In this document: positions 1 to 38,705 of the stretch, piece by piece | How positions within the stretch are numbered: the first letter of the stretch is position 1 | How the letters are laid out: each line of letters opens with the position of its first letter | DNA from: Lineus longissimus | Lineage: Eukaryota > Nemertea > Pilidiophora > Heteronemertea > Lineidae | Reading direction: 5' to 3' | DNA: 64,000 nt | Assembly: GCF_910592395.1 (NCBI RefSeq) | Contig: NC_088311.1 | Location: 24,832,646-24,896,645 of the forward strand | Made by a program: the position numbers and the translations under genes | Notes under the pieces: model-generated | Databases searched by the model: none | What the model saw: only the letters and a program-made list of their open reading frames with translations | Told to the model about the DNA's origin: nothing

Positions 1-470
1 CGGTGATCATGTTGGTGAGATCAGCAAGAGGGCGCCAGGTGGAGGCAACATGAAATTACACACTAGTATCGTGACTTATGAATTCTGTGGGACGGAGGTA
101 ACTGATTAGTAATAAATGGTCTGATCAAATCATCATTCTGGGAAAAAAACAATGTTTTATAAGGTCATACTGTTTGCCTCCAATCATTAAAATATAATTT
201 CTGTGTCCTTGAGAAAGACACTTTATCCTTCTTGCTTCTCGCCTCACAGGAGTAAATGAGTTCCTGGCTAGCAGAAATGGTCATGTTCATTGCATGTTCA
301 CAGGCAATTGAAATGTGCTGTCACTGGCTCTGTCACAGGCAATTCAAATTTGAAGTTTGTTCCGAAGGGAGTTGAGATCAAACCACATTGTATAGGCATG
401 CGTCTGGGGGTACAGTAAGCATGAAAGTACAGTAAGTAGAAAAAAATGTATCATTTCTGTTTTGTTGCAG

Positions 471-952
471 TTTGATCCCTGTTCATTCATGACTGATGGT
501 GCAGTGTATATCTATGCGTTTGATGTTGGTGGTAACCTTGGCAACCCACAGGTGGAGATCATGTCACGATTGGATTCGGCGCGGGCTCAGGTACACCATC
601 TTCTACTTTCACGATCAGATCTGAGGTCGTTGCTAAGTTCTGTTTTAGAGTTGTAAACTAACATCATTTGCTCAGAGAAAATCGCTTCTGTTGACCTTAT
701 GCCCAAAAATGGAAGACTAAAACTCTTCCAAGGCAGTATTAACAGCCCGAAAGATGCACAGTGTTTTCTTAAACTGAAAATGTGCTACTTTTTCTTTCAG
801 GTCCTCTGTGTACCATTTATCATCTTGGCATTTCACACAGAAAGCAAGGAGTCCAAATCTGCGATTGATAATTTGACAAAAACATTGTCCACCGCTATGA
901 CATCACGAGGTGAATACCTCAAGAACTTGATGGAGAAGGAAAAGGTTGACAG
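471..952 (+). other. Degenerate C-terminal half of a first Roc domain
   Basis: These two exons encode a beta-strand pattern (VYIYAFDVGG, then VPFIILAFHTES) that lines up with the second Roc of the same protein (IYILVWNMR, then VFIVGTHADE). The first exon starts at the same place relative to the domain as the exon at 14337, just before the strand that follows the G3 region. The G4 motif THxD of active Roc domains is replaced by AFHTES, so guanine binding looks impaired. The P-loop half would lie left of the window, so activity cannot be judged fully. Confidence 0.55.
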
Positions 953-3900
953 GTAGTGTGATGACATCATTTTTATCATCTTGACCAGTGACATTGGCAG
1001 ATGCTAGTGCAAAGAATGGCATGAATTATATTCTTTTTGTTACTCTCGTTTTCTTATATGATAACTTGGAATTTCTTCCAGTTTTTCATTCTGTGTTTCC
1101 TTTAATTTGTGAGAGCAGATCACCTTAACAATTGCTTCAAAAGATTTTACCGTCTTTCAGTCGGGAGCGAGACTTCCAGTTTCAGCAGCACTACAGCCGT
1201 GGCCTACAGGCGGAGGAATTTCATCAGATGGACCCTATTTACTTCTTCAGCATAGAAAAGGATACTAAACATGTAAGGAGAATCATGAATAGTCTGCCTG
1301 CCATTTTGTAAGAGTGCGTGCTTGTAAACATGGTCTATACGACACATGAAAAACGGAAAGATGCTGTGGTTGAGAGCGGCTCTGAATGAAAATGGGAGTC
1401 TCATGGTTGCATAAGTTGTCTTGATGTTTAGGTGAACTAAACTACAAATATATAGGCCTTAGGCCTCAATCGTTTTGGTCTGTCACTGATGTCGGTTGTT
1501 AAAATTCAGAATTGGGCTGGTGGGGTTCCCAACTTCGTCTTCATCTGTCCTGACCTCTTATTCAGTCAACCCCATATACCCTTGGCTACCCATACTATAT
1601 CAAGTATCAACGTACCTTTTAGCTCCATGGTGTAGTCCTGGTGGAGGTCAAAATTATGTGAAACTTTAAATCTTTTATTGCAATTTGCTTGTATTGATGG
1701 TTTTCGTATCCTAGGAATAAATTCAAATTTTTCAGGTTGAGTATTGCGCCCTGAAACAAGAGGTTGGAGGAAGTAATCAGACACTGGAAGATCTTCTAAA
1801 AGTACAGGAAGAATTAACGGTAAATATGATTGCATTATTCGGGAGTAAAAAGTGTAAAAGGTTGTGAAGATTTGATTCAAAATACAGCTTCCCTCAAAAT
1901 TTGCAGTGTTGAGGAATGGTTAGTTTCGTTTGACACCAATTATGATGTGGCAGCTCTGTAGTGGGTTGTGTCAAGCTATCAAGCTGTTTTCCAATGATAT
2001 TCTGTTTTCTTTTCCAGAATAAAGCTAGTGCATCCATTGACAACCTTAGAAAGAGTGATATATCTGAGGTAAGAGGATCGGTTTTAGTCAGCCTTGATAG
2101 GAGATTTCTTGGTGGCTGTAATCATTGGTCATTTCCAGTTTTAAGAGTTCTGAGTCGACTGTATATTCAGGAAACTCTTGATTGCAAGAACCTCGATCTG
2201 CATCCTGTCTCTTGCGGCGTGCAGTTAAAAAGTTGGGTTTTTTTTCGAAAATCTTCCTAAAATGATCATCTGATCGTTCTGGGGCTTCCAAAAGAGAAAA
2301 AACTAAGTTTTATGAAAGGAACTTGTTCCTTCAATAAAAGCCTCCTTGCATCTGAATTGCACAAAAGATCCTTTGATATTATCGAGGTATGTTTTAGTTG
2401 ATAATTTTTTATTTTGATTACTGTATAAATGACCTGAATTAAAACTTCTTTCTTTTCATTTCCTGATTGATTCAGATAGCATCCATGAGCTCACCACCAC
2501 AAGCGCTGCTGAAAGTAGCACAAGGACTGTTAGTCCTTTTAGGAAAGGCAGACTCGGTGAGTAACCCCTCCAGAAATGATTCAAGGGTGTTCTCACCCAT
2601 TTAACTTTGAGGTCAAAAGTTCATTTTACTCTCTTAAATATCTGTTTGTTATCAGAAATGACTGTTGAGGTATATGTGTAAGAAATTGTGCGTTACCAAT
2701 GAATTCTGACCAAACAGTTCAAGAATTGAAATTCAGACACCAGATTTCCATAGCTTTATGTTCTTAGGAAGGGTCAGTCAAAACTCTGAACATTTCAGTG
2801 TTGTCTGTCTTCTTTCAGTTAAAGTCAGCTACTTGGAAACTCTTCAAGCCGATGATCAGGAATATGTCCTTCCTCAATGAGTTGAGGGAGTCGCTGTCAA
2901 ATGTAAGTAGAATTGCTTGAAAAGTCAAAACATTACTGTTTTTATCACACAAGAATCAGCTCGACCACAATCTTTTTTCTGTTTGTGATGTGTTACCGAG
3001 CAGCTTGTCTGCACTGAACCTTTTCGCCAACTTCTTCATTTTAAGATTTTTATGTGGAATTATTTGCAACTAAATTTGTTCCTTATCCATTCCAGCCTGG
3101 AGACTTTGTGGAACGCTGTAAAAAGATCACTCCTCTCATGAACGACCCTGATCTCAATGAACAAAGGGTAATTACTAATAAAGTGGTTAAATTGAAGTGG
3201 ATATATGTACAGTGGAACCCCGGTAACATGACCACTCATGGGACCCGAGGTTAAATGGTTGCGGTGGCCGCGTTAGTGAAGTTGAAAATCCGGGGACAAA
3301 ATGCATGATTAGGTTTTCCCGCCAAAATTGTTGAACTTATTCATAAGTTTGTACAAAATACAAGAACTTTGCATTCCAATGTTCTTCTGGGTTTGGAATT
3401 GTGGAGATGCTCGCTAGGCATTCAGTCCATTTTCAGTGAAAGGGTAGCTGTCCTAGAGAGTTCAGCCATATTTTACATGTTAGAGCCCAAGAGCGTAGTG
3501 GTCAGGGACTGGTATCCTTTGGCCAGTATTCCTCTCTGTTATAAAACCGACAAATTCTTATTGACACACTGGCTATCGTGTTTGTTTATCTTTCAGCTTC
3601 GCAACGTATCAATCGCTGGACATGCGTTCTATATTTGCATGACGACAGTTTACCAGTTGAGCACAGAGCACTGGCCGAAGATATCCAAGCTACAAACTGA
3701 TTTGAAGGAGAAAATGGAAATCCAGAACAAACATGTATGAGTACTTAAATACTCTAAGAATTATTCCATTGGATTGCAGTCCGGTTGGTGCATGGCCGTT
3801 TTCAGTTGTCTCTGATGGCCTTGATGTTCTTGCCAACCGTTCCCGTTCACTTGATAAAAAACCACTGTTAGTTACTGACTGTAAAACAACCCATCTGTTT

Positions 3901-6900
3901 ATAATGATACTTGGCAGAGGACGAGGAATGAGCATGAACTGAAATTGTAATGCCTGGCAGACTACGTGGAAGAACAAGCCAGCAGGAATGTTTCTTCTCA
4001 CCAACCATGGCCAATGCTTTGTCCCATGGATCACAAACAGTATCCAATCCATTCACTAGAAAAATCATCATCGGACGTCTTAGTCCAAGTCAGACTTGGG
4101 GCATCCCCTGTCTGTAATTTATTACTCTCTGTCATTGATTTTCTGTGACCCTGTCTATGATATGCCTTTTTCTTGCAGGACCACACTGCAATTCAGTTCT
4201 CTCTTGAAACTTGTGAAAAGTATGTTCGTACGGTCTACCAGTGGGAGTCGTACGAATTCAGCCAGGCAGTACACAGCTTGTATTCGTCACTGCCTAAAGT
4301 CAAGATGATGAATCTGGAGGAGTATGTGCAGAGTCTGTCGGTCAAGCCATTTGGTGATGGTATGGGACCGTATCGGAAAGCAGTCCAAAGACTTGCTAAC
4401 ATGGTAAGTTTGGTTTCAGTGGTCAAGTATTATAAGATGATTGCAATTGTTCTGTCAACAGTGAGGCCAGTGATGGTATAACTATTGCCACAACAGTTGC
4501 CAGGTTGGCAATGCATTGTCTAGTTCAATAACAGATTCTTGCATTGCTCAATGTGCATGGGTTGGAGATCTAACAGAGGAAAGACTGTATCAAGCTGTAT
4601 GTAACGATGCTCTTGATGATGATGATTTATGACAATGTTAACTTTCATTTCAGGGCAAAGTTCTCTTCTACCCAAACATTGCCGGTGAACCAATCATATT
4701 TGATGTACAGTGGTTTATGGACATCATGGACTTGAAGCACAAAGACAAGAAACTAGAGAATCGTGACCGGGTTTTGTCGCTGACTCGCTACGCCCAGCTT
4801 TATGAAATGGGCGACCTGGAGGAGGCATGGAAAGACCACTGCACAGGGAACGAAGTAAGTCAGTTCAGCATTGCACTCATGGGGAGTAATACTCATAGTA
4901 ACTCATGTAACAGAATAGAATAAACCAGTTGACATCCTGCACGCTAAAGTGAGATGCCTGAGTCATTTTGATCTTGGATCTCTTTGGATTTTGATTTCAC
5001 AAGATGATAAAACTGAAACTTTCATATCAACTGACACTGTCTATTTGATTAGTTTTCAGCAGTTCTCTCCATCATGCAACACTTCGGTGTTGTGCTCCAA
5101 GTTAAAACTGATGTTCCAAAAAATACCGAGCCAGATTGGTACTACGTGTTCTTCAGAGATGTGCCCCCCAAGATGTACCTTTGGTCGAACCCTCGGCAAG
5201 ATCAGCTGAGTGGACTGGGAGAGCGTATCTTCAACACAGACAATCCCGATGACACAGAGGGTCTCGTCTCAAATTATTACTACGTGGTGAGTAACAAAAC
5301 TGTTCCCTTATGTCAACTTGGGGACCACGCCTTCCTCAAGAATTCTACAGACTGAGTAGTTAGTTGGTTCTGATCCTCGCTTTATTCTTTCTTGTTCGTA
5401 GGTTGTGCGATGCTGTTTAGAACGACTTGTTAAGAAGGAATAAGAAGCTTACTGAGCTCTGTTGGTCCCACTTGATACCTCAATAGCCTGCATAGAACTC
5501 TAACCTTTAAACAGTTTGTCAAGTGTATCTCAAATATATCCATCAAAATTTTTAATTTTCAGTTGTTTAATTGTCCTTGTTATGTTTCAGAAACATTTTT
5601 GGCCCGATCAGAAACCGGACACCGACCTCGAGGTGACGTACTCCTACAATCTCGATAACGGCTTCCCCTCTGTACTGATTCCCCAGATTGTAGCAAAACT
5701 TCACGAGATGTTTGATGTAAAGTTCTGCTGTCAAACCTGCGCTGTCGTTGGTCAGGGAGCAGTCGAGGCTAAGATCAAGTACAATGTGCATGGCAGTAAG
5801 TACAGACTTTCAAAATCAGGCAGTTGAATTCCTCAAAGTCAATTTTTGGCCATGAAAATGATAGCCTTTTGATAATAGGCTGAGGTTAGCCTGAAATGAT
5901 CCCTACTGTAAACAAAACATCATTGTTATCGTTACTGAGTCACTTTAACAGAGATTCTAGCAATGTAGGGCTGTATGACTGACCCATGCATCAAGTACAT
6001 TTACATCATGCATTGTGCATCATCATCATGGACCTTTCATTTCAAACACAAATCACAGATGGGGACGTCTGAGGGGTGCCTATGATGTCAAAGTGTGGAG
6101 TTGACATAAATACCAATCACCTCTGAGCAGACGAGTCTTTTGTCATGTGATGTTGGTTTCCTCCAGAGACTCAGGTGTGTTCCGATTGACACTCGAGACT
6201 AAACTGTTGTGTTCCTCTTTTAGCCCGCATCACCGGCTCCATTGATATAGAAGCCCGCTGCACTCGCTTCAGCCAGGAGAGAGAGGCGAATGAGTACATC
6301 ATTCATCAGTACATGTGGGGTCTCGTCAATAGTATCTGTCTGTGTATCGAAGGCCTGATCATCTCCTATCCGTTGCTACACTCTCATGTGAGTTAATATA
6401 ATCCAAGTCCTGTCTTGATGAGACAGCAGATGATTGTAATGATGTCTTCGAAGATGTCTGTGAAATTTTCTTTCTTTTAACTCTGAATGTTTTTTCAGTT
6501 ATCACTTGTATCTTCGAACCTGGGGCTGACATAACAAAATCAAAGTTTGATGACTAATAACTCGGAGTAATTTTATGTCTAATGCTGCAGGTTGTAATCC
6601 CATGCCTTGGATCCTGTGCCCAAACCGTCTACAGGTATAGATACTCTCCACTGGAGCTTCCCAGGGACATTACAAGTGAAATACCTTGTCCAAGTTGTAA
6701 AGAGGAGCGGATGTCACCCTTGGCGTATGGTCTTCTGCTCGGCCGCCATGCCTACCTTCCGTACCATGATTGGAAGGAGGAACTGGGAACCAAAAGATGT
6801 CGGCATTGCGGCATCTCCGAGGTTCAAAGTGAGAAATTTTGGGTATGTTGTGTTTGCTTGACCATCTTGCAATCTTGTCCAAATTCAGTGCACTGGGTCA

Positions 6901-9900
6901 GTGTACGACTATTTCATTACCATGGCTGGTGATGTGAGAAAATCCTGTTTGATCCCAAAGCAAGGATTGATAAAAGCCAAACTTCAAGGAAATCAAACCA
7001 GTGGTTTGTTCCCAAGAGCCCCTACTTCAACTTTACTACATGTACACCATGGTTTTTCAAAAATGTAGATGATGTCTTTATTCTGTGTGAAGTTAGTGTG
7101 TGACTTCAATGGCGTAAATCGACTGTGATTCGTATGCATTCATCTGATGCTTTCAGGCAATGGAGTCCTCCCTCTACCCAACATTTAGATCACAGACATT
7201 TGAGTTCATCACTGCTGAAACAAGTCAACCAGAGCAAAAAGAGTGAGTCCACTGCAAAACTTTCTTCAGTGTTTCAGATAACTGCCAGTGAAGAATCCAC
7301 TGGACACCCAGACTAATGTTACTCTATTTGCCCCAGTATTTATATCAGGACGTAATGCCAATGGTACTGATTTAGCAACTGGGCCCTGAACTAGATTATT
7401 TAAGGCAATCATTCTCTTGCCTTTTTGGTGGAGAGGGAGGGTGTACTGTGACCACTTTCATCATTTTCGCTTCAGATTATCTGAGACTCGACAAGAGAGT
7501 TCTGTGGAGTTGTTTCTGTCTTGTCAGCCTCTCTGTGCGAGGGAATTCAAAGCGGTCAGGTTTCTGGTGCTGGACTCTAAAGGCGTGGAGCTACACATCA
7601 TACGAGACGTTGAGTGCATCACAAGGTATGATGAGTTAAGAGTGGGTCTGGTTGTTCAAAACAAATTCTATCACTCTATCCATTAGACATCTAGTGGCAA
7701 GTAAACAGCAACAAGCCAACGGCATTATTAGCTCTGGTAAAATTTTGATATATGTAGGAGGGAACTGGAGATCCCTGATATAAGCTAGTTTATTAGCGAG
7801 ATTCACCCTCTTATCAGAAGGGCGACAGATCTGTCTGACCGGGCTGCAAAACCCTTGGTGCAAAGATGCTAAAAGCTGATGTTTGTTATAGAAATTGATC
7901 GCAACCATTTGTAAAACTCCAACGGCCCCAAAGCGATGAAGTTTCAGCCTCCACCTCAAGTGTGCTAGCACATGCAATTGATTTTGTTATTGACTCCAGA
8001 CTGAAACGTGGAGAAACCGATGATTTTACCTCCAACCTGCAGAGAGCAGGTGATATGACCATGAACTTGGCAGGAATGATCATCAAGAAGTTTACTGGTG
8101 AAGATGTGAAGGAAGAGCACGAAGCGTTGAAATGTTTACCGGGTGATGTTTTGCATTTGGATGTCAAGTGTATTGTCTCTGAAGATGGATGGGAGGTAGG
8201 TTCAAGAAAACACATTGGCTGCCTGTTGAAGCTTAAAGCAGCATCTCAACTCAGTTAGAATTCTGACACACTCCGAATCTCTTCTCGCAAACATTTTCAT
8301 CAAAATAGCCACTTTATCAAGCTCTTTGCAGGATCTATTTGCTGTATTGCGATATTATTGTGATCGAATTCTTTTTTCCTGCTGCAGACGAATGACCTCT
8401 TGTTGATTATCTCCAAGAATGGGTGTGCTGTGGTCACTGTGGGCATCCAGACAGATTCCTTCCTTGCGATAACCGCAGAGGATTCATTCATGACTGAGTC
8501 TGGGCCCAAACTGGTGATGCAGACACCGATGTGTCCAGTAAGTATTCCTTAGTTCCAGCAATGTTGATTTTGGACGTTTTATCTTTTGACGACATAACTG
8601 ACAGTCCATATATATAACACTATTGACTTGTTCTGGTCCTGTGATTGGTTCGCAGCCAGCTGTTTAAAATAGAAATTGCCTTCTCCCCAGGTGGCACTTG
8701 AGAGTGTCTTGTTTGACAGATCTGGCATGTTCTTTCTTTGGGAGAGACATGTCGTAGACAAATTTACTTTACAAATTAAAAGGTGATCCTCGTGACATCT
8801 CAAAGAATCTTCTCTTACAGGTTGTGACGTCCAGACACTTCAACGTCAACACCCTGGTTGTTTATGATGAAACAGGGATTGGAGGTCAATGGGCAGTTGG
8901 AACGATACAATCCATTTCCAATGGCTACCTCTACGTGTCGCAAGATAAACACAAGCGGTCGTCTGCCAGGAAGATTCATCCGAATTCAGAAGACCTGTCG
9001 TCGTTGTGTCAGACCCCTGGCGACAAGAGCATCACCATTGGGAAGGGTAACTATTGTAAACAGTGAAATGCCATTGTGTAGACAGAATATGCAAATCCTA
9101 TAATTACCAAGTTTCAGCACATTTGCATGTATAATAACAGCACAACAGCATTGTGTATTTCTATATTACAAATGGAGTAAACCTTTAATAATGCATAATT
9201 AATGTCTGAAGATAACTTATCAATCGTTTTTGGCCAGTTCTGCTTAGATCTTTTACACTTTTACACTTTTTGGCTTTTCATCCCTTCACTATTTGTTGCT
9301 TTCAGAACTTGTAAAACGTCCAGGGCAAGTTTACGAGTTTCTGAATGAGACGAAGACTTTACCAGCACCGATTGGGCTGTTTAGACACGTCATTAGGAAT
9401 ACGGTAAGGAAAGATGATAGTTCTCAAACTAATATTGGGTTAGTCAGAAAAACTGGTAAATCTCACATTGGATGTTCGGTAGAATTATTTGAATATGCTT
9501 ACGTAATGTTCATTATATCAGCATCATAAATCCATTAATAAAATTGTCGAAGTTTTTATGAAAAAACAACTTTAAAAAAAAGACAAGACGAATTTGGTAA
9601 AAAGAGGTAGTAGCCCCCAGTGAGATTTGAACTCACGACCCCTGGTTTACAAGACCAGTGCTCTAACCCCTGAGCTATGGAGGCTTGTGTGAGAATGAGG
9701 TGATCAGCTGGTACATGTCAAGCAGTTTGTCAAGTTTATTCACAGCAGGCACAGTGACAGCTTTCTTATTATATTGTCTCTTGACATATGGCATGCATTA
9801 AATGTACCGGTACATAATTGCTGAAGTTACAGGTTATTGATTACATATGTCCTATAGTTATAAAACAATGTTTTCAATGTCTTCCTAGTGGTATAATCAT

Positions 9901-12900
9901 TGATTTGTTGACATTTCTTGTGTATCTGTGACCGAGCTCACTCTATAGCCAAGTTAAAATAAAATTTGAACAATTCACTTCATATGCTCATTCTACCTCA
10001 TTCAAGATATGTTCTTTATTTTCAGGCTGACATTGATCTATTGCCTCTGAAGGGCCGTCTTGAGAACCACCCTGTCCAGTGCACCGCTGGAACCTACACA
10101 CCACTAGTGCTCGCCAGGACAATTGAAAATAGCATCATGATGAAAAACCGTCTGTCACCGGTGTCCATGTTGTTCTTGCCGTCCAACTTCGAGACGCATC
10201 ACCTGTACCATCCATCACGTCACGTGGTCCATGACCTGACCAATCAGGCAGTGACTCAAGTCTGTGCTGGAGATGTCATCAGTCGCAGGAACGGTATGCA
10301 TGGTCTTGAGCTTTTTTCACAGATTTAGCTCTGATTGAATAGCCTGGGCCATTGTACTCACCTGTAGGTGTGCGGCTTCCAAAGTGTTGTTTGCACGGTT
10401 GTGATTCAGATGAATATGTCTGTTGCGGGCAACGATGGACTCCAAAATTGTTTGTCGAATGCAGGTAAGAGGGGCGAAAGCAACTAGATGGGCCTTGAAA
10501 TAGACAGAGTCTGCAGGTCACCATCACTAACATTACTTTAGCTCTGAAGTACCTCTCTAATCTTTTGTGTCATACTTGTGTATATTGAAGCCAGAATGAT
10601 CATATCACATACCTGACTGCCAGACCATACTGCTCATATTCTTCAGCTTTATTGAAAATGATGTTTGTTTCAGCGGTTTACCATGCGAGTCACCTGATGA
10701 ATGCTCCCGTCATCCCTTTGGCTGATGTTGATGGTGTCACCTCTGCTGAGACTGGCCAGATCTGGAGGGCATTGGTGGCCCCTTTTCTAGAAGGCTATCA
10801 GAGACTCATGGCATATCCTGTAAGTGTTGTTCTTTGAGCGTTGTTGATTTCACTGTTGCCGAATAAGTTGTCGATTCTTCAGGTGCGTCATGTCCGTTGT
10901 TTCTTTTCAGCCACTGTTTAAAGTCTGGAATAAGATCTTGTCGCAAGTAAAGGAAGACTTTGAGGAAGGCTTGGTGAGTGCATTCTCTAGATTCCATTCA
11001 GATATTACAAACGTTCCCTGGTGCAGTCTCAACTTTTAACTTGGCCGCATATTCACCTTGTAATGGAATATAGAATACAGGAGTAGTTGTCATTGTGAAC
11101 CTGCTACGTCTTTGTCAGTTAAAAGAGAGATTTGGTCTTGAAAGCTAAAAAACAATTTGGTGTTTTCAGATGAGGAAGTGTCTATCTCGTCTCATGGCGT
11201 TGTACTATGAAACCATGCTTCTACTTATGGCTGTGAATACTGACATCGAGATGAACCCAGAGATGAGGCAGGTTAGTAGATCTCAGCCAAAGCTTTCAGG
11301 TCAACTTGTTATAATTCCAGTAGTTCAAGTTACAGATTACTGATCAAGAAGTTAATTATAGGATTGATTCAAATCACCTCTTTGTTGTTTCTGCATTTTC
11401 AGAGGTTTGGTAATGTAAAGATTGTGTTATTCCTTTCAGGCAGAGGCAGACGTGTACACCATCAAGATCAACAAAGCCTTTGAGCCGCGGGAGGATCTTG
11501 AGAATGGCCAATGTGAATCACATCGCTGCATCGACTGGAAACTGGTTATAGACGCTGAAAATCTCAGAGCAATCAAACTCTCGGCAGACACGAAGGCGGA
11601 CATTGCTATGGAAATATTCCGGCGTTTCCCAAATCTTGTGACTGTTGACCTGTCTGGCTGTCATTTTAAAACACTCAGTGGCATTGGGCTTTGCAATACT
11701 CTAGAGAATCTCGACATGAGTGAGAACGATTTTGAAGAACTGCCAGCTGAACTTGAGAAGTTGAAAGGAACTCTGAGGTCTCTGAATCTCCATACAAATC
11801 CTCTGAAGCGTTTTCCCGATTTCATCTCTGAGTTTAGCAAACTAGAGATTCTGGATGTCGGCAACACATTGATCAGGAGCCTACCACAAGATTTCGGGAA
11901 CTTGAGCAGACTACGGATGCTTTCCCTTGAAAACACTGCCGTTGTCAATCTGCCAGAAAGCTTTAGAAAACTTCGGGTATGATACATTTCTAGCTCATCC
12001 TGAGGAGCTTATACGATACCGTGGCGTCCGCCATCATGAAACTTTCAGTTCCTGCTGGAGCCTTCGGGGATGACCACTCTTGTTTGAAGCACTTGTGACA
12101 AATATGTTGTCCTAAATTCTTGAAAGGGTGTGACAGCCCCGTTGCCATTGAGATCTTTTTGAACATATTTCTATGTTTAGTAAATCTTTTTCTACTTCAG
12201 TATCTGACCTATTTGAACCTGAAAGGTGTCCTCTGGATGGCCGCGTCTGATATGCCACATCGAAGTATGACAATGGAGAAATACATGTCGTTTGTGTCAA
12301 ACAGGAAGTGGAGTTACAATATGGCTGTACTACACAAAGAGGTGGGTTATTTGTCTTATCATTTCATGTCTGTGTCTGATGCACGTGCAGCAGCGAACTT
12401 CGTGCGATCTGTTGTGATCACTTAGGGAAGTGGAGACATCACAGGAGATCAATGTGCTCACATCGACCTCCCGACAATAATGTACCGTAAAGTACCTCTA
12501 GGGTAGATAATCTTGTAAAGAGACTAACCACCAATCTTTTCAGGAAAAAGAAGAGTTGTACAATGCGTGTAATCCTACCGATGGTGGCTTCACCTCAAGA
12601 GGAACCTACGACATGCAGGAGAGGATGTTCAAGATGTTCCCAAGGCTAGGGGTCGATAATGAGGGTAAGTATTGGTTCAATAAAGGCCCGATTTTGCTGG
12701 GGTGTTTTTCAGGCTACAATATCAGTGTGTAGAGTACCCCAGCTAAGGTTGACTGATGTCAATTAGACGTTGTTGTTTATAAGAATCATAAAGTTGTTTC
12801 AGATGACTTTGCATCTGCACAGGAAGTACATTGATAATGACTTGTTCCAGATTCGGCGGACATCTCCCTCTTCGGTGGCGTTCCATCCCAGATATTCAGC

Positions 12901-15900
12901 TGCAGGAACCTGACCTACCTCAACCTATCAAACCAGGGGTTAAAGGTCATCCCGGATATGATCGGCAAGCTGAACAACCTGCAACAGCTACTCATTATGG
13001 ACAACCCTCACTTGGTCAGTGTGAGTGGAGAAGTTGCCAAGACACCTATTGAATGTGAGTTGTGGACACGTTTAATCTCTTTGTCTGATTTTGATCTAGA
13101 AAAACTGATAAACCAGCTAGCTAAACATAACAACAGTACAGTTCACTGCTAGGGCTGCCAACCCATCAGAACTTTCACTGTTCTAGTCTTTAAGTTTGCA
13201 AAGCAGTACGGAAGATATTGAAGTCTTCCTCCAATGCTTACAGAATACCAGTCGTTTTTGCCAATGACCATTTCAGCCGATGGTCTGAAACGACTTCTGG
13301 TCATGGACCGAAACAACCATGAGCTGATATGGTAGTGTGCCGAAACAACTTGTGCGAAAACAGCCATGGCAAATGGTCATTGCCAAAATGACTGTATACC
13401 CTTCAATAGTTCCAAAGTGATCTAAAGTTCGCTTGCAAACTATTGTTGCTCCAATTCCAAAAGTTGTTTCATTTTCTTTAGCTCTTAACCTGACGAGCTG
13501 TCCATCCCTAAAAACCCCACCACAGGAGATCATCCGACAGAACAGCCAGACGCTGACGATTGCGTACCTGCGGAGATTGGCTGCAGGCTCTGTCACATGC
13601 TACAGGACCAAACTCATGTTGGTCGGACTTGGTGAAGCCGGGAAGACAAGGTATTTACAACTTTCACTGAATCACTAGATAGCAGGAAACCTTTGTAAAA
13701 GCTGTGTATGGTTTCCCTTTGTTGTGGAAACTGAGTTTATGCTTTTATTGTGATATCTATTCTTGACAATTTCCAGTCTGATTAGGGCCTTGATGAGCGA
13801 CAAATTCAAAACCACTGCCACTTCCGCCGAAGGCATTACGGATGGTATAGACATAAAGAACTGGCAGGTGACCCGCAGCAACCTGACATTGACGTATAGT
13901 GTGTGGGACTTTGCTGGACAAACGGTCTACTACAACACACATCAGGTAAAGACACCAACATTTCCCTATATTGAGAGACAAACTCCACTATCGATAGGGA
14001 TGAAACTGTTCCAAAACTGTTCAAGCTGGCTCAAGGCTGATCACCATGTTCTGTCACTGTGACAGACTTTGACATGGGTTCTCCTTCTGACATCATAGAA
14101 TTGCCCCCCTCTCCACCTGACATCCAGCTCTGTTTGAGAGGTAACTTCTTTCGGATATCATCTATTTTGCTCTTTCCTGATGAGGTGGTAGCAACTAAAG
14201 AACCTTATCGGACATACCAACGAATGGGTCTTGAGCATGTGATCTTCCCGCCACAAGGTAAATGCCTTCACTTAAGGCCATCAGAATTGCTATACAAAAG
14301 ACATTCTTGCTGAAAATACTTGTTTGTATTTTCCAGTTTTTCCTGTCAAAGAGAGCCATCTACATCCTGGTGTGGAACATGAGACTCGGCTTTGAGCATG
14401 CTGGCCTAGACTTCTGGTTGAATTCCATCCAATGCCATGCACCAGAAACGCCTGTCTTCATTGTGGGCACACATGCTGATGAAGTGTCAAGGTCGGAACT
14501 GCCGTCTGAAGAATTCATGAGGAAGTTTTCAAACATCACTGGATTCTTCTACATCAGCTCTAAAACTGGACAGGTAAATGGAGACAGAATGCAGTGCCCA
14601 TGTTTCATCTCCTTTGTTTACATACAGTACATCTTCGTAGATCCGGCATTTACTGTTTCAAGAGGTGGACCAAGAGAAGAAAAAGAAAAGTCAAATTGAA
14701 AATGATGAGATTCCCTTTCTCCTATAGGGCGTCTCTGATTTCTATGACAAGTTGATAGAGACAACCTTCCTACAGCCATACATGGGTGAGAGGATTCCAG
14801 AGGCGTGGTTCAACTTCGAGAAGAACATCATCAGCAGACGACAATCTGGCAGCCTTCTGCTTTGGGAGGATATTGAGAAAGAAGCTTCGAGGAGTGCAGT
14901 GTTTGGGAATGAGGTGAGATTTCTTGAAGGCGGAGGGGATGGAGGCTTGATTGAGTGCTGCCTTTGGGACAACCTACCGTTTCATCAATATGATGGTAGG
15001 TGTGTTGCCATCCACAAAAGTATATTCTTGATTATTTATTTGGTTTATCATCTGTTCTTTCCATTTCTTCCTTAGATAAAGCAAGCGGTCCAATTCATAC
15101 ATGACCTCGGCAGTCTCCAGCACTTTGATAGTGACTTCCTACGCAATCGTGTGGTGATCAACCCACAATGGATTGTCGACGTCATGGCGTGTGTCGTGTC
15201 AGTTCACAATGATGTCAACAAGGTAGGTGTCTGCAAGTTCAATGTGAATGAACAGTAACGCTTTTTCAGACATGTCATTTCGATTGTGAAAAACAGAAAT
15301 ATCCCAGCTTTGGGAACTGAATTTCAACAGACAGACATGAGAATATTTATTGTTGCAAAAATCCAAATTGAAGGAGATCAAAAGTTATAAGATTACTATT
15401 GATCATCTCATCTTGTTACTTTCAGCATGGTTATCTCGATCATAAGGACATCGCCACGATTTGGAAGGATTATGATTCAGAGCTTCATGATTGGCTGCTT
15501 CGACTGACTGAACTCTTTGACCTGACCTTCCCATTGGCTGATCAGGATGTCAATGTCGTTCCTTGTCTTCTGCCTCAGACTGAGCCAGAGGTAGGTTGAC
15601 GTTTGAAATCACCTAATCCCGGCTTTCTGGTTATTGTGACTTGGTCCTGTCAGACCAATTTTGGGATGAATGGAATTTATAATCAAACACCTCTTGATAC
15701 CTTTCAAAAATTGTAATATTTTTGAAAGGTTTGTTTGGTGTGAGAAGAACACTTCAATGGGGATACTTATACCTACTTCAACTGTCGTTTAGATTGAATG
15801 GCCAACAAAGAAAGAGGGAGTGAGGAAAGCTGAGATGCTCTATCGTTTTGAGAGTCTGCCGGCGGGCCTGTTTAACCGGGCCCAGGTCCGCCTCTACCAG

Positions 15901-18900
15901 TTCTCTGACGGCTCAAGCATGTGGAAGAGAGGTTCTGTCCTAAGGAAGAATGACCACATGGCTGCTATTACAATGGAGGGGTAAGATTTGTTATACCAGA
16001 ATGCTCGGTGTCAATATTGGGGAGTCATTCTTGGAAACAATGTGTCTTCAATGGTTTAAGTTGACAAGAGATTTGGTGCACTTGTGTGGTTTCAACGCGT
16101 GTGATGATCCTGCTCTGAAACTTGTAAACTTGTTTGGTGAGTTGTTTGAGCTGTGAGCTTCGCCTCAGTTTCCTAAACGTGACCGGCCAAGAGTTGTGCC
16201 TGATTGTTGTGAAGATCTCAATTTGCTGGAAGAATATGCGAATAGAGGTGTTGATGGATCATGATTGGCATCCATCTGATGATATTGTATTGTTTAACCA
16301 GGGAGTCTGAAGTGCTCGTTCGAGCGCAGGGCACCAGACCCGAGAACATGATCCTCCTGGTCCATGAAGTGTTTGAGGGCCTCATCCTGGAGTTCTTCCG
16401 TGGGGTCAAGTACGAATACTTGATGCCTTGTCCCGACTGCCTGAAAGCGGTAAGAAGATAATTGACATGAAAATCTTTGAAAAGATGCAAAAATCAGAAC
16501 TTTATTTTTTGTGACATTCTTGTGGAATTTCTTGCTCGTCATCACCGATGTCACAGTCTGGACAAGTTAAAATCATGTCTAGTTTGTTTTGTTTCAGGAC
16601 GCTAAGCATCCGACCATGTTCCCGTCATCAGTGCTGAGGCGGGCTGTCGAGATGAAGGCCATGCATCTCCAGTGCCATGCATTCTTTCATTCCCTCGCAA
16701 CATCAGAAGTGCAAGGTAACTACTTTTATGTCTGATATCGTCACCAGTAAACACATCTAACCATGGTGTTCATTGCTTGCTACGGTGGCTACAAATTTGG
16801 GTTCATGACGGAGTATTTCACTTGCGCCTGCATAGACACCAAGTACAGGGAATCTTGTCTTACGTCTCCTTCAAAGGACATGGTTATCCAAGTAAAACGA
16901 CTTCCAAAGGTCATAAGTGAGGTGTCTTTGTTGGGGAACCAACTCACGATTATCAGATTATGAGTTTGACAGCTCCATGTAACTCAACATCGTCTTTTAT
17001 ACATTTCTCCTTCCAGCCATGATGCCACCAGAAGCATCTGAGGACTATGAGGTCCACATGAACAACATGGTCCATGACCTGGAGGACCTGCAGAATCAAC
17101 TGCCATTTGATACATGCATCCTCTACTGCAAGGCAGACGTTCCTCAAGAAGGAGCAGACGCCGTCCATCCAAGACAGGTTAAGAACGACCTGGAGAAGAA
17201 AGGATTCAATGTGTAAGTGGTAAAAGCAGTCCAGTGTAATACCAATAGGTTCTGTGCCTAAGAGTCCTTTACTTGAGAATCTCTCCCCGTGCAGGCTGAT
17301 GTGGATGTTCAACCGACTCCAACAGGTACTGCAAAATGATTCTCCCATGCTCACTACAGACTCACTAATCTCTTTTCAGTTGGTACCAGGATGACCTCCA
17401 TTCCATGTCAGTTGATGATGTCATAAAAGCAATGTCGTCATCAAAGACGGTCATAACATTTGTATCCGACAGCTTCGTCTTGGACACAGATTGTCAGCGC
17501 ATGTTCCAGTTTGCGCAGCAGTCGCTGAAGAAGCCGATTCTACTGGTCATGACTGGTAAGGGGAGAAAATGGCAGCAGTCGGTGATTGGTATGAGGACGG
17601 CTCACCAGGTGTACGTCAATATGCAGCGAGCGAAACAGTATGAGTCGAAACTGCAGGAGCTTGTCACTCAGGTGTCGGGGAAGGTTGGCAAGAAGAAGGT
17701 GGGTGGAGTGTACAAAGAGAAAAGTAAATCTTGTGTGGTGTGATTCACATGCTCCTTCCCTGGCACGTGTTACTTATAAGGATGAAATAGTAGCATAGGC
17801 TAAGTTACACACTAATATAAATGTATTGTTGAGTCGAGGACCTTTGTACCAAAGACAGCAGTTCCCATGTTTTAGGATGTTTTCTGAAAGCTTTGGCTCT
17901 TCCATTATGACACAACATTATTTCCCTTTTCTTGACAGGTTGTGAAAGGTGCCGACGTGTTTGTCAGTTATTGCTGGACAAACTCTGCCCAGGCAGTAGC
18001 GATCGGACATGCTGTTGAAAAGGCTGGATCGTTAGGCCACGGTGATCCTAGACAACTCAAGGAGTTCTTGGAGAGTGAAGGCTTCTCAGCTTGGATTGAC
18101 TTTGAGAATGTTGGAGTGGTAGGTTTAGCTAAAGATCGTATTATATTTCGGGGCATTCACTGACCAGGTGGGACCAAACGTCTTTAAGAGTCAGGGTTGA
18201 CCACTTTCTAGAATGGGTGTAGGAGAAGACTGTCATTACCAAAAACATTGTGTTCATCTTCTTTCCAGAACGGACTGTTTAGTGACATTGCAGAAAGCTT
18301 GAAGAAATGCAGAGTGGTTGTGGCCTGTGTCTCAGATGAGGTAAGGTTGGTTGTCTTTGTGATAAACTCAGTCTTGACTTCTTGGGGCTTACCACTGCTT
18401 TACCCATCAAGTGGCAATCCCTGTTGGCTTTGAAAGAGCAGAACTGTATAGCTCAGCAAATGTTAGCCCTTGGTGGGTCAAGAAGGATGGAGCGCATTTC
18501 ATGTCAAACGAAATGCTTCAGGAATAGATTTACAAGGGTCCCCAAGAAAGCAGTTGCAGAAGACAGTATTGTCTTATCAGAATGATGATTTCATAGGCCT
18601 GATTACCAACCGAGTACGAATGGCCAAGTCGTGAGTCATCCCTTTCTGTGGAAAAGACATTTCCCTGTATATATACTGGGATTATGACCTTTCACCTTAT
18701 GTTTTCTTCAGTATGCGATGTCCCCTAATTGCCAGATGGAGTTCAGGTTTGCGCACGTCACTCTGAAGAAGCCTATCATCTTAGCAGTGGTTGGTACAGG
18801 TTACAGCTGGGAATCCACCGAGGTAAAGTAAAGATGCCATATTGAGCTGCATGCATGGTTTTCCAGTGGGGAGGATTGGGTGCATGTGTTATATATCTGT

Positions 18901-21604
18901 TGTGTTGTTTCACCAGGTTCTTCTTTGCATGAAAACGTTCGTCCAGTCAGGTTTATAAATGTATGATCAATTAATTGATTGAGGCGCCCTGCTTACAAGA
19001 TAGTCATATCAATGTGACCTGCTAAAATTTTTCTTGTCTGCAGATAAAACCAGCCATAGCTAGGTTTGATATTTATAACTGGTCTCGGAGACAATCTCTT
19101 CTTTTCACAGGCTCCTGTACTGACCACCACGCACAAGGGGTTTCTGTTGCATGTGGTAATTATTACTGGTGTCTGCAACAAAAATCTCTGATTTGCAGGG
19201 TGCTAATAGGTATTCCTTTCATTCTTCAGGTTGGCCTGCTCTCCCTTGGCTACCCAAAGATGAACTTCCAAGTCGCCAACAACATCGCATTCAGCCAGCT
19301 CAGGGAATCAGTGGCTGATAGTTTGGCTAGCTTGGATTGTCAGAAGGATGGCAAATCATCTGCTCCACAAGGGACGCAGAAGCAGTCGGCATTCCAGGAA
19401 CTGTATGAGCTTGCCCAGAGGAAGTTCCTGCGTCAGTTGGTGACTTATACGAATCATAACAGTAACTATCCAAGGCTGTTTGTCCTAGATCTTCAGGAAC
19501 CAACGGTGAGCAGTTTAAAGTGATCATATCCGAGACACATCTGAAACACAAAGTTAACTTCATTTCACCAAAAACTATGTTCTAATCAAGAACTGTTGCA
19601 GAAATGTCTTTAGCTCTTTTATCAAATACTGAATTGATCTTTGATGAAATGATTTCCGACTTTTTCAGAGCGTCTCTGAATCAGGTGGGTCTGGCATCGA
19701 ATCAGTTGAAATTGACCTGAAAGATGATGATCAGCCATCTGACAAGCCGCATGATGGACCTGGAGAATACTGCTTCCGAGTCCTGTGTGAGCACGAAGGG
19801 GTAAGATCATATCTGGCGGAGTTCGCTCTTTCTTCACAGGGAGAAGTTTCCGTCTTGGAGCTCAACGATCAAGAAGGAGTTCACTCATACACTCAAGATG
19901 GCCTCATAATAGCATATTATCTTTCCATATTAAGTTGAGCAGTACTAAGTGTGACTTTCAAAAAGAATAAACCCTTTACAGAGTGAGCCTGCATTATATG
20001 TTGCAAAACTTGCACCTTTGTGTCAAGGCTCAAGAAAGACAATACTTGGGAGCTGGGTTTAGTCCAGTTCCTTCTCAAATACCACTCCATGTGGTACCAG
20101 CAAAAGGTTTCAGGTTAAATCTTCACTTCTTTCAGGGCTGGCATGCCGTCCATGAGGGTTTCCCCATCTCGATGATACAAGATGAAATGACGCCCCTTCT
20201 TCACCTGACCGCTCCGTTCTTTGCCCGCATCCTCTCCATCCTCAAGCACAGCAATATCAACCTGCAATGCTTGAACTCAACCCAAGGTGACGCTTTCATC
20301 AAGATCTTAGAGCAGGTATTTGTCTTGGCCATGGTCAGCCCATCATTTAACAAATACTCAAGTCAAAAAATGTATTGTGACTTCAACCTTACAAATCAAA
20401 CTTGCATGTGATGTTGGATAACTACTGTGGATTATAGCTCTCTTGCTAGATACCTATAGCTTTCTATAAAGGCACAGTTTTGGGTCCAGAATTGGGCATG
20501 TTCAAACCTGCGAATGATATTTAACTGAGCATATTGTCCGTCCCTTCAGCGCGCAGGAGTCAATGTTGATGTACGGCCATTCTACCAAGCTATCAGAAAC
20601 CACATCATTAGGAAGGATGTGACGCAGACGTTTGGAGGCTTGGCAAGGTCAGTCACATGGTTATAAACGAACATTGATGGAGGTGGGAGCAGCATGGTCT
20701 AGCTTAAGGCGCCCTACTCAATCAGGCTATCTTTAGTTCGTACCGGACACAGACACATCGATTGTGACCGTCGACAAGACATTTTACTCTGATTGCATTG
20801 TCCTTTGAGTAAGATGTGTAAAGCAGAGTTGTCTAAACTCGTATTTGCTGGTCTGCTGTTTGTGTCTAGTCTCCCTGATTGATGTTCCAGGTGTTACCTG
20901 CCGAGCGGCAAGTTCCTCTGGTTGTGTCCTGAACACCAGAAGTTACCCAGGGTTTCCAAGCTTGAAGTAATTGTGTCAGACCCAGCGCCACATGATACGG
21001 TCAGCGACTACCAACTGATTGAGGATCTGAAAGTTTATCAGGAGCTGGTGACAGTCAAGCCTCAAGGTGGGTACTGAGATTCTTGACACGAATTCAGGTC
21101 TCTTCTTGGAAGAGCAAGACACACAGTCTTCATACTTGAGTTTGAATTGACTTTAGCTTGACAACTGTTTTGGGAAATAGTGAGACACACATACCTGTTC
21201 AGACTGGTGGTGTTATATATGTACGGGTCAGTGGTCTAGCATTGCGAAGTGATTCGTGTACCCGTGTTGACATTGTTTCTCGTAAGCCTTTAATGGGAGG
21301 TGTTTTTGTATTTCCAGGTAATGACAAACCTACAACAGCAGCGCCACCAAGTGAAACACCAAGTGAATGCGATAAACCTGCCAAAGAGGATGTGAAATTA
21401 CCATCAATAAAGGAAGAAATCCAACGTATGCCAGCAGTGACTGCTAAACCTGCCAGGTCACCTGCAAAGCCAAGCAGTTCATCAGGATCAAAACCTGCAA
21501 AGCCAAGCAGTTCTTCAGGATCAAAACCTGCGGCAACATCGAAGGGTTTCACTCCACCCAAAAAGGTTGAACGGTCCAAGAGTATAGCATGCACTGTTCA
21601 ATAG
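471..21604 (+). CDS. Giant ROCO-family protein with dynein-type stalk, LRR, Roc-COR and two TIR domains (5' partial)
   Basis: I chained 49 coding exons into 2,759 residues ending at the TAG at 21602-21604; the N-terminus lies left of the window. Exons: 471-590, 801-952, 1161-1272, 1736-1819, 2018-2068, 2476-2556, 2819-2902, 3096-3167, 3597-3734, 4179-4403, 4654-4858, 5060-5286, 5591-5795, 6224-6387, 6591-6842, 7157-7242, 7476-7625, 7934-8195, 8388-8537, 8821-9046, 9306-9403, 10026-10293, 10674-10819, 10911-10973, 11170-11271, 11440-11976, 12201-12341, 12544-12664, 12851-13054, 13482-13650, 13777-13945, 14337-14573, 14728-14913, 15076-15222, 15426-15590, 15793-15980, 16302-16449, 16598-16715, 17017-17212, 17380-17698, 17939-18118, 18269-18340, 18712-18822, 19230-19505, 19669-19800, 20136-20315, 20550-20647, 20891-21066, 21318-21604. 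Phase agrees at every junction and no poly(A) signal or stop interrupts the chain. The protein is probably a cytoplasmic GTPase scaffold; its pathway is unknown. The 4858/5060 junction assumes a GTCAGT donor four bases after a better-looking GTAAGT, because only that keeps the COR frame. A short exon may end near base 14. The left part could still be a separate gene, though nothing in the sequence marks a boundary. Confidence 0.8.
1736..3734 (+). other. Dynein-type coiled-coil stalk and microtubule-binding domain inside the ROCO protein
   Basis: Six consecutive exons (1736-1819, 2018-2068, 2476-2556, 2819-2902, 3096-3167, 3597-3734) encode about 170 residues with the order of landmarks of the dynein heavy-chain stalk tip. 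A short helical lead-in ends in IDNLRKSDISEI, followed by the paired prolines SSPP that close CC1 in dynein. Then come LLVLLGK, TWKLFKPMIRNMSFLNEL (dynein: W..a...m.d..Fl..l), MNDPDLNEQR (dynein: y..dp.fnpe.v), SIAGHAFYICM (dynein: S.Aa..lc.Wv) and HWPKISKLQTDL, which holds the conserved CC2 proline and opens the second helix. No AAA+ motor motifs lie around it. The domain sits between the first Roc remnant and COR. In dynein this module binds tubulin; binding here is inference. The coiled coil appears shorter than in dynein. Confidence 0.72.
3210..3310. mobile_element. Possible terminal piece of a pogo/Tigger-like or MITE element
   Basis: Inside an intron of the ROCO gene, the stretch beginning CAGTGGAACCCCGGTAAC resembles the terminal inverted repeat start (CAGTGGAACC..) common to pogo/Tigger-type DNA transposons and derived MITEs. 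A related string (AGTGGAACCGCCGTTAGTGG) occurs in a LIG4 intron near 44578. I did not find the opposite end, so this is a low-confidence fragment. Confidence 0.3.
4179..7625 (+). other. First COR domain with CxxC pair
   Basis: The exon at 4179 leads into a COR-like start: a helix ending KAVQRLANMGKVLFYPN, then EPIIFDVQWFMDIM. This matches the family pattern of a short helix, G-x-hydrophobic strand and DPQW-like tryptophan. A later stretch (SIMQHFGVVLQV, then DWYYVFFRD near 5090-5150) matches the COR segment that usually reads MExFGL followed by YLVPxLLP. The exon 6591-6842 contains CPSC and CRHC (C-x2-C-x33-C-x2-C, 6687-6809), which could bind zinc. COR domains of ROCO proteins mediate dimerisation and link to Roc. 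The second COR keeps only the first CxxC (CPDC). Confidence 0.6.
9599..9603 (-). terminator. RNA polymerase III T5 terminator of tRNA-Thr
   Basis: A run of five T on the minus strand lies nine bases past the tRNA 3' end, as expected for pol III termination. It supports a working tRNA gene. Confidence 0.7.
9612..9684 (-). tRNA. tRNA-Thr (anticodon UGU)
   Basis: The minus strand folds into a complete 73-base cloverleaf: acceptor GCCTCCA with TGGGGGC plus discriminator T, D-stem GCTC/GAGC, anticodon stem CTGGT/ACCAG with loop CTTGTAA (anticodon TGT, threonine), and T-stem GTGAG/CTCAC with loop TTCAAAT. The A and B box positions look normal and there is no intron. A T5 tract follows nine bases downstream. 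The gene lies antisense in the ROCO intron 9404-10025. Confidence 0.95.
11440..13054 (+). other. Leucine-rich repeat region
   Basis: The large exon 11440-11976 and those at 12201, 12544 and 12851 encode repeats of the LxxLxLxxN type: LVTVDLSGCHFKTL, LENLDMSENDFEELP, LRSLNLHTNPLKRFP, LEILDVGNTLIRSLP, LRMLSLENTAVVNLP, then LTYLNLKG and, in the last exon, LTYLNLSNQGLKVIP and LQQLLIMDNPHLV. Spacing of about 22-24 residues and the terminal xLP agree with LRRs of the ROCO and RAS-binding SHOC2-like type. A stretch of about 60 residues from 12230 to 12660 (MEKYMSFVSNRKWSYN and on) interrupts the repeats. LRRs immediately before Roc are the standard ROCO order; they usually serve as protein-binding surfaces. 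Confidence 0.85.
13249..13394. mobile_element. Foldback/MITE-like inverted repeat in ROCO intron
   Basis: The arms at 13249-13273 and 13371-13394 are near-perfect inverted repeats (CAGTCGTTTTTGCCAATGAC and its partner ending GGTCATTGCCAAAATGACTG). They flank a centre rich in short CGAAACNAC/GTCGTTTC-type words. This resembles a small non-autonomous foldback DNA element. No coding capacity is seen. Confidence 0.55.
13482..14573 (+). other. Second, intact Roc GTPase domain
   Basis: Three exons (13482-13650, 13777-13945, 14337-14573) hold the guanine-nucleotide motifs: P-loop MLVGLGEAGKTSL (G1, split by an intron after the K-T), YSVWDFAGQTVYYNTHQ (G3, WDFxGQ) and VFIVGTHADE (G4, THxD). These are the defining motifs of Roc (Ras of complex proteins). 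All residues for GTP binding that I can see are present, so this copy is probably the active switch of the protein, in contrast to the remnant at 471-952. Confidence 0.9.
14728..16715 (+). other. Second COR domain
   Basis: Six exons follow Roc directly. The segment VVINPQWIVDVMACVV (15140-15200) is the COR signature with the conserved NPQW/DPQW. It is followed by DIATIWKDYDSELHDWLLRL, the MExFGL-like LTELFDLTFPL, and VVPCLLPQTEP. After a helical linker comes YRFESLPAGLFNRAQVRLYQ, typical of COR-B in ROCO proteins of invertebrates. The end has CPDC and MHLQCHAFFH. COR normally dimerises the protein and couples Roc nucleotide state to the rest of the chain. Confidence 0.85.
17017..17698 (+). 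other. First TIR domain, lacking the NADase glutamate
   Basis: Exons 17017-17212 and 17380-17698 encode a TIR fold. It starts with the strand FDTCILYCKAD, continues with VKNDLEKKGFNVWYQDDL (alphaA and betaB) and SSKTVITFVSDSFVLDTDCQ (betaC and alphaC), and ends with KKPILLVMTGKG (betaD). At the place where NAD-cleaving TIRs have C-x-x-E, this copy reads DCQRMF, with methionine instead of glutamate, so it is probably a binding-only or pseudo-enzyme TIR. If the intron after 17698 were retained, translation would stop at 17743, leaving a protein without the second TIR. Confidence 0.8.
17939..19505 (+). other. Second TIR domain with C-x-x-E motif
   Basis: Exons 17939-18118, 18269-18340, 18712-18822 and 19230-19505 encode a second TIR. 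Seen in order: GADVFVSYCWTNS (box 1, like DVFISY), KEFLESEGFSAWIDFENVG, ESLKKCRVVVACVSDEYAMS, PNCQMEFRFA and KKPIILAVVGTGYSW. The motif N-C-Q-M-E-F places a glutamate at the position of the catalytic glutamate of SARM1-type NADases, so enzymatic activity is possible. Known TIR modules either assemble signalling complexes or cleave NAD; which applies here is inference. Confidence 0.83.
19669..21604 (+). other. C-terminal region and basic low-complexity tail
   Basis: About 290 residues follow the TIR pair. The exons at 20136, 20550 and 20891 form a compact part with RCYLPSGKFLWLCPEHQKLP, a cysteine-containing stretch like those near the C-termini of other invertebrate ROCO proteins. The last exon (21318-21604) is a Ser/Pro/Lys-rich tail with two tandem AKPSSSSGSKP units (about 21470-21530) and a final basic segment (PPKKVERSK), probably disordered. 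No domain is recognised in the tail. Confidence 0.55.
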
Positions 21605-37793: not shown

Positions 37794-38705
37794 ATGTATA
37801 TATTGTTAAAAAAGGAAATGACTTGCTGTATTTTTTAGATCTTTTAGTCTGAATTGAATGTGCCCCAATGACACTAGAGTCCCGATATTGTGTGACGAAT
37901 TCATCAGAAATTATTTGCTTTGCACATTGATCGTAACTCGAGCAACTTTCATTCAACTCTAGTTCCAATCAAAGCTGGCCGTCAAAGTTGGTCATGGAGT
38001 CGTGAGCAGTAAGAGTAATCGCACACAATCATTTTAGTGGGATTCATGATGGATGAGCAGAGAATTCACCCGGAATTAGGGTGGGACCCAGAATTCAGAT
38101 GCTGACAGAATTGAGACGGGGTATTTTTGAGGACAGGTATCCATTTGGCTTCTTTTTTGTGTGCCGTAGTCCTTCACTGCACTTCATGCAAACCAGCATT
38201 CAAGTTGACATGTCTTCACCACATCAAAGTAAATATGTTTATACGCAATTAGAGTTATGGTATACATTTTACATAAAGAGTGTTTGCCTTGAATTACTTT
38301 ATTGATTTAGTCTGTTAGAATTGCAGAAAATGGCAAAACATTCAAAAAAGCACTTTTTTGTGCGGAGAGATAATCGGTATATTAGGAATAGTGAAAATTC
38401 TGAGATTTTTTGGTACCGACGACCACAACATATAATCTGTCGTGAAATAAAATCACTAAAAAAGCTATTTTTTAATATTTTAGTGCTAAAGTATTAAAAG
38501 TAGAGATAAATCGTTTGTTTTACGTAGATTAAATAATTTCAAAATAGCAATTAAAATAGTTTTTTACGCCATAACTTTGCGGCAGTATCATGGCCGACTG
38601 AGACAAAATTTGCAAAATTGCAGAAAAGTATCATACAAAGTTGCCGATTATTACGAAATCAAAATCACTTTGATAAAACAGAGAAATCACACACAAAGGA
38701 GAGTA

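Follow-up and report, generated by a model that had tools for sequence, protein, structure and literature searches.

A dynein-type stalk tip encoded within a ROCO/TIR gene of the nemertean Lineus longissimus

A 64,000-nucleotide stretch of the Lineus longissimus genome (NC_088311.1, positions 24,832,646 to 24,896,645), referred to below as the window, begins with a ROCO/TIR gene in which six exons encode a dynein-type stalk tip. A search of a protein collection revealed the product encoded by the window itself, a protein of 2964 amino acids (P0001). An exon chain built by hand on the forward strand (471-21604) comprises 49 exons, is open in one frame throughout and contains 48 GT-AG introns. 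It is identical to the last 2738 residues of P0001 once one splice junction is taken from that protein; the P0001 junction (donor 4854, acceptor 5053) was adopted in place of 4858 and 5060. The first 226 residues of P0001 are derived from exons upstream of the window and from window positions 1-97. The gene structure is drawn from two sources, the genomic sequence and the P0001 gene model. The gene is located on contig C4, and all genome-wide searches covered the 391-Mb, 30-contig assembly. A tRNA-Thr (TGT) gene lies antisense within an intron of the ROCO gene (9610-9685, minus strand).

The domains of P0001 follow the order leucine-rich repeat (LRR)-like stretch, pseudo-Roc (Roc1), stalk, COR1-A and COR1-B, a blank region of about 500 residues, LRRs, Roc2, COR2-A and COR2-B, TIR1 and TIR2. 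The Pfam match of the N-terminal LRR-like stretch is under its cut-off. The features of the gene are the following (window coordinates; CC, coiled coil; H, helix).

1-97 (+): pseudo-Roc1 exon, 3' part (the 5' part precedes the window); reads ...GDHVGEISKRAPGGGNMKLHTSIVTYEFCGTE, in frame from L009 9933, GT donor next, matches P0001
471-590 (+): pseudo-Roc1 exon, FMTDGAVYIYAFDVGG, beta-4-like; from the exon chain and P0001, chr4 paralog counterpart FLSSGATYIITVEL
801-952 (+): pseudo-Roc1 exon, with VPFIILAFHTES at the place of GTHAD in Roc2
1161-1272 (+): final pseudo-Roc1 exon, ending ..YFFSIEKDTKH at a phase-0 intron; corresponding junction in paralogs
1736-1819 (+): stalk exon 1, coiled coil CC1; exon chain and Pfam MT
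2018-2068 (+): stalk exon 2, final part of CC1; its basic pair R-K aligns with K3298/K3299 of cytoplasmic dynein
2476-2556 (+): stalk exon 3, SSPPQ proline pair and H1
2819-2902 (+): stalk exon 4, H2-H3 with the conserved Trp
3096-3167 (+): stalk exon 5, H4-H5
3597-3734 (+): stalk exon 6, H6, CC2 proline (HWPKI) and CC2
4179-5286 (+): COR1-A-like domain, exons 4179-4403, 4654-4854 and 5053-5286; profile-profile match to COR2, chr4 paralog counterpart, weak sub-threshold Pfam COR-A on paralog segments
5591-6842 (+): COR1-B-like domain, exons 5591-5795, 6224-6387 and 6591-6842; hhalign against COR2-B, tblastn matches of the chr4 paralog
7157-11271 (+): about 500 residues without recognised domain, 10 exons; no Pfam match
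11440-13054 (+): leucine-rich repeats; Pfam LRR families
13482-14573 (+): Roc2 with P-loop GLGEAGKT and GTHAD; Pfam Roc, E 1.1e-22
14728-16715 (+): COR2-A and COR2-B; Pfam, E 2.4e-30 and 2.2e-28
17017-17698 (+): TIR1; Pfam TIR_2, E 3.9e-7
17939-18822 (+): TIR2, C-x-x-E at NCQMEF; Pfam TIR_2, E 2.4e-13
19230-21604 (+): C-terminal exons and stop codon; exon chain and P0001

All six stalk exons are bounded by GT-AG introns, have a length divisible by three and are of phase 0-0; they encode residues 355-524 of P0001. Alignment to the dyneins of the same genome showed the stalk landmarks listed in the original prediction, in dynein order. The two proline landmarks bounding the microtubule-binding domain (MTBD), SSPPQ and HWPKI, are present in register; such prolines are described as universally conserved in dyneins in a passage of PMC6629372. 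Pfam MT (PF12777) matched the 170-residue stalk with an E-value of 3.3e-9 and 36.7 bits, exceeding the curated cut-off of 24, and was also detected within the 2737-residue spliced model (E 1.6e-7). A search of solved-structure sequences with the stalk gave 65 matches at E ≤10. The first 56 of the best 60 are dynein heavy chains, assigned as such by name, label or length (9fqr_Hl, with 4583 residues, carries another molecule name), with DNAH9 as the best match (E 1.4e-7); the last four of the best 60 of 65 are hydrogenase-2 at E of about 0.5. A profile of 15 dynein stalks from the same genome scored 53.2 bits with the window stalk and 46.5 bits with the whole of P0001. The local match stops at the start of H6, so from H6 to the end of CC2 the assignment is based on the global alignment together with the structure model. 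About 50 residues lie between the end of Roc1 and the proline pair, and about 20 follow the CC2 proline up to the end of exon 6, which makes for a short coiled coil. No AAA family was present among the 19 Pfam matches (E ≤1) of the spliced model or in the precomputed list for P0001. These results confirm that the gene encodes a real dynein-type stalk tip.

The good run of structure prediction yielded five models with a predicted local distance difference test (pLDDT) of 85.6, 72.1, 43.9, 43.2 and 38.8. The predicted stalk exhibits the helical MTBD fold of dynein between two coiled-coil helices (model pLDDT 85.6). The chains 7jtk_C (Chlamydomonas radial spoke) and 9ya2_L (Toxoplasma conoid microtubules) have 14% and 6% identity to the stalk, and Z scores at their level possibly arise by chance for helical domains.

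Upstream of the stalk, Roc1 is degenerate. Its P-loop, including the lysine, and its THxD residues are missing, as read directly from P0001. Roc1 gave no Pfam match and no match among solved-structure sequences, and its pairwise alignment with Roc2 was not significant (z 0.8). A MAFFT alignment of Roc1 and Roc2 was discarded as misaligned. Downstream of the stalk, a COR1-A profile of seven genes, whose paralog segments were partly chosen by a COR-A-like motif, matched a COR2-A profile of six genes in hhalign with a probability of 81.9, a score of 35.4 and P 1.2e-6; the best column shuffle scored 10.2 (40 attempted). COR1-B scored 18.1 against COR2-B, and none of the column shuffles (40 attempted) exceeded 9.5. 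Pfam COR-A was the best yet sub-threshold match (E 0.029-0.076) for three of the four COR1-A segments submitted from the six paralogs. The window COR1 was not recognised by Pfam alone, its pairwise match to COR2 was weak (18 of 500 shuffles equally good), and solved-structure sequences gave no COR match and three unrelated matches at E 0.08-0.17. From these profiles the first module appears to have a COR domain, and COR1 is better supported than Roc1. The second module is ROCO, as judged from the Pfam matches of the spliced model listed above. TIR2 contains C-x-x-E, which we take to resemble the catalytic motif of TIR NADases; TIR1 contains C-x-x-M.

The original prediction had described six in-phase exons with ordered stalk landmarks between a Roc remnant and a COR domain, in a protein that continues to LRR, Roc, COR and two TIRs, with no AAA+ sequence near the stalk. 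The exon phases, the alignment, the degenerate Roc1, the profile-profile matches of COR1-A and COR1-B, the Pfam matches throughout the single open chain and P0001, and the Pfam results for the AAA families all agree with this description. The profile searches and the structure prediction it had proposed returned dynein matches and the MTBD fold.

Genome searches with COR-B and COR-A revealed further ROCO genes (14 loci with a COR-A match). At least seven genes on contigs C2, C3, C4 and C9 (L034-L047) appear to form a family in which a partly degenerate LRR-Roc-COR-like half precedes an intact LRR-Roc-COR-TIR half. This layout is clear in two family genes and weak in the other five. The comparison comprised the window gene and six others of the 14 COR-A loci; of the remaining seven, only L040 was retrieved, and it was left out. 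All six paralogs have an LRR-Roc-COR-TIR content like the C-terminal half of the window gene, the LRR matches of the C9 gene being partial. The chr4 paralog (about 0.39-0.41 Mb) possesses clear upstream counterparts of the N-terminal half. The other five match P0001 weakly in the N-terminal part (best E 1.8e-4, with many E-values above 0.1); a motif and the similarity of the paralogs to one another served to identify their COR1-like exons.

No stalk was found at the Roc1/COR1 junction in any of the six paralogs examined. The junction introns, all of phase 0, measure 263 bp in C2b, 293 bp in C2a, 404 bp in C2c and 241 bp in C3, where C2b and C3 show only that a splice-consistent junction exists and C2a and C2c are separate genes aligned with the C2b query. 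Two alignments of the chr4 paralog differ at this point, one giving a gap of 185 bp and phase 0, the other 206 bp and phase 1 with a different boundary. The equivalent junction in the window gene extends over 2.9 kb and holds six 0-0 exons. When the genome was searched with the entire N-terminal module, 15 matches were obtained at E ≤1, namely 12 exons of the gene itself, two COR1 exons of the chr4 paralog and one dynein covering the stalk (E 1.6e-5). In the upstream open frames of the paralogs no stalk exon match exceeded 7.9 bits, which is a weak test since the window's own stalk exons reach just 12.7 bits with the dynein profile. The genome search with PF12777 (25 matches) missed the short stalk exons of the window, and other split stalks could escape it; more telling is the genome-wide search above, whose query included the stalk itself. 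When four other paralogs were aligned in spliced mode, the chr4 paralog or the window protein without its stalk serving as query, scores were low (65-102). The run of seven introns that are all of phase 0 was rejected as insertion evidence; 34 of the 48 introns are of phase 0, which makes such a run unremarkable (chance 0.07). The insertion argument therefore rests on the paralogs. The simplest and most likely history would be that, in this gene alone, symmetrical exons entered an old phase-0 intron.

The introns of the stalk fall at other columns or phases than those of the dyneins of the same genome. Exon-by-exon copying from one of these dyneins was considered, and no shared intron positions were found. 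Thus, either the event is old or introns were gained afterwards. The nearest of these dyneins by identity is L010 (28%), and a tree places the stalk beside the partial row L018 (support 95/96) on a branch of length 9.68. No particular dynein can be named as the parent.

We propose that six symmetrical exons encoding a dynein MTBD with a shortened coiled coil were inserted where the degenerate Roc meets its COR, and that this domain may serve as microtubule anchor of a TIR scaffold. We lean towards this explanation as a whole. Its insertion part is supported by the sequence, the structure model and the stalk-less paralogs, which agrees with the earlier suggestion that a GTPase scaffold may have captured the stalk; for the mechanism, we infer the following steps. 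The stalk head would project from the Roc1-COR1 body and bind the tubulin groove via H1, H3 and H6. The scaffold would thereby be anchored on microtubules. Self-association of Roc2-COR2, together with the microtubule lattice, could then bring the TIRs together, and TIR output would depend on the microtubule network or on the place of the protein in the cell.

Dynein MTBDs contact tubulin via H1, H3 and H6, as stated in a passage of PMC7042235, and R3342 and K3299 are named in the literature as tubulin-contact residues. The numbering used here results from alignment of the cytoplasmic dynein of the same genome to the human chain (mouse numbers taken as human minus 2). K3298, E3378 and R3382 presumably are contact residues as well. 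The window stalk retains an Arg-Lys pair in H1 at the places of K3298/K3299 and a Lys in H3 at W+4. Several observations weigh against a microtubule anchor on a captured stalk. Asn is found at the places of R3342 and R3382 and Gln at that of E3378, the span from the conserved Ser to the CC2 proline in H6 is three residues shorter than in the aligned dyneins, and identity to the dyneins of the same genome is 16-28%, with the very long branch of 9.68. Just two of the five models of the good run exceed a pLDDT of 70, and their input alignment held one dynein row. A first, longer model of 222 residues was poor (pLDDT 45.6), and Foldseek found nothing for it at E ≤0.001, the best row being a dynein chain at E 0.56. 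In addition, the junction queries were typed from paralog open frames (C2b and C3), so that in two of four cases a gene was matched to its own frames, and the Roc1/COR1 boundary of C9 was not located by alignment. Given the low identity and the very long branch, the stalk may no longer have its tubulin surface. The captured stalk could accordingly be a rigid helical hairpin without tubulin binding, kept for another partner or as a spacer between Roc1 and COR1, as the changed contact residues and the shortened H6 would also allow. We regard this as a possible but less probable explanation. The stalk retains its fold, the Trp, the two proline landmarks, the basic pair of H1 and the Lys of H3, and 14 of 15 dynein rows of the same genome likewise lack Arg at the R3342 place (one of these has Lys). 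Each of the two Asn is preceded one position earlier by Arg, and Lys-Asn at the H6 site occurs in two of these dyneins. On this pattern of kept and changed residues, microtubule binding is plausible. The earlier suggestion of a captured stalk used as microtubule sensor or anchor is supported in part.

Cross-matching is common among coiled coils, and a chance similarity might produce a dynein match. This has a negligible probability and is ruled out by the globular head without the coiled coil, which scored 27.6-28.6 bits with the dynein profile compared to 9.8-10.8 for the best of 20,000 head shuffles. A gene-model artefact, with the N-terminal half or just the stalk exons being part of a separate gene or of an unexpressed relic, is conceivable as the exon chain was read from genomic DNA alone and P0001 is a gene model of unstated prediction method. 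We consider this very improbable in view of the 49 exons without stop and 48 GT-AG introns. Both halves also have recognisable counterparts, arranged in the same order, in the chr4 paralog, and five other paralogs match the C-terminal half clearly and the N-terminal half weakly. Moreover, the halves lie 168 bp apart (11272-11439), and the exon that follows has no in-frame Met before its residue 57. A further explanation concerns gating. The ROCO body would replace the AAA+ ring, with the GTP or dimer state of the Roc-COR modules, in particular Roc2-COR2, shifting the register of the coiled coil and altering microtubule affinity as the ring does in dynein, or with tip binding switching the TIRs. 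The Roc-to-COR junction is the hinge of ROCO proteins, the stalk exits at just this junction of Roc1 and COR1, and Roc2 with its P-loop is part of the same chain. Such a gated stalk is nevertheless unlikely given the missing P-loop and THxD of Roc1 and the shortness of the coiled coil. Since Roc1 lacks a P-loop, the anchor would most likely be constitutive and not nucleotide-driven in cis. The likeliest role we predict is to anchor a TIR scaffold constitutively on microtubules.

To our knowledge the dynein stalk is not part of LRRK2, which likewise is a ROCO protein associated with microtubules. Its route is its own Roc (GTPase) domain, whose basic residues bind microtubules according to passages of PMC9758056; the association itself, invoked in the original prediction, is stated there. 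DAPK1 is a human ROCO member (passage in PMC3995007), and C. elegans DAPK-1 is linked to the microtubule cytoskeleton through Patronin (passage in PMC5053806), in contrast to the dynein stalk of the window protein. Compared with the dynein heavy-chain stalk tip (PF12777; PDB 3err, 6rza), the window stalk does not lie between AAA4 and AAA5, and its protein has no detected AAA+. Besides the three-residue shortening of H6 and the changed contact residues, its coiled coil of about 50 and 20 residues differs from the dynein stalk of 15 nm given in a passage of PMC7042235. ROCO-containing 'TLRs' with LRR, ROC, COR and TIR are on record for Aplysia in parts of PMC9334734, where the two Aplysia genes are reported to have an Mbt repeat region and an EF-hand. 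The LRR, Roc, COR and TIR content is common to both; unlike the Aplysia proteins, the window protein has a second, degenerate LRR-Roc-COR-like N-terminal half and a dynein stalk. Among the matches listed from the open-licence literature, no title or abstract start described a ROCO or TIR protein with a dynein stalk. The word dynein is missing from the main text of a ROCO gene survey (PMC11378527), one figure of which lists up to forty animal domain combinations, so an earlier sighting there is possible. Protein-database searches, covering length windows of about 670-2133, 1505-4790 and 1630-5187 amino acids and requiring shared 5-residue words, revealed no other protein with the module and only a Pythium dynein at E 3. 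A scan of viral_contigs with a dynein stalk of the same genome gave no confirmed match.

Several further features were detected elsewhere in the window. A Menorin-family open frame (PF10223, PF25161) lies at 24230-25414 on the minus strand. An exon of a transportin-3/importin-13-type protein (PF24140) was found at about 32430-32680 and exons of a DNA ligase N-terminal domain (PF04675; pieces joined by hand) at about 38500-40200, both on the plus strand. A minisatellite with a 68-bp unit in 32.6 copies occupies 52751-54964, and open frames of a UHRF1 tandem tudor domain (PF12148) with a sub-threshold SRA match are located at about 58500-61200 on the minus strand.

The dynein stalk is usually regarded as inseparable from its motor. 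Its natural occurrence in a signalling protein shows it to be movable as a module, and the stalk-less sister genes in the same genome are ready-made controls. The findings suggest but do not prove that signalling of this ROCO-TIR protein is tied to microtubules. If microtubules are bound, TIR signalling would be joined directly to the cytoskeleton, and the protein would provide a natural test of minimal stalk needs, with its short coiled coil, changed H6 and altered contacts. If the GTPase-coupled explanation were true as well, exon shuffling would have produced a non-motor sensor of microtubules that acts in cell-death or innate immune signalling.
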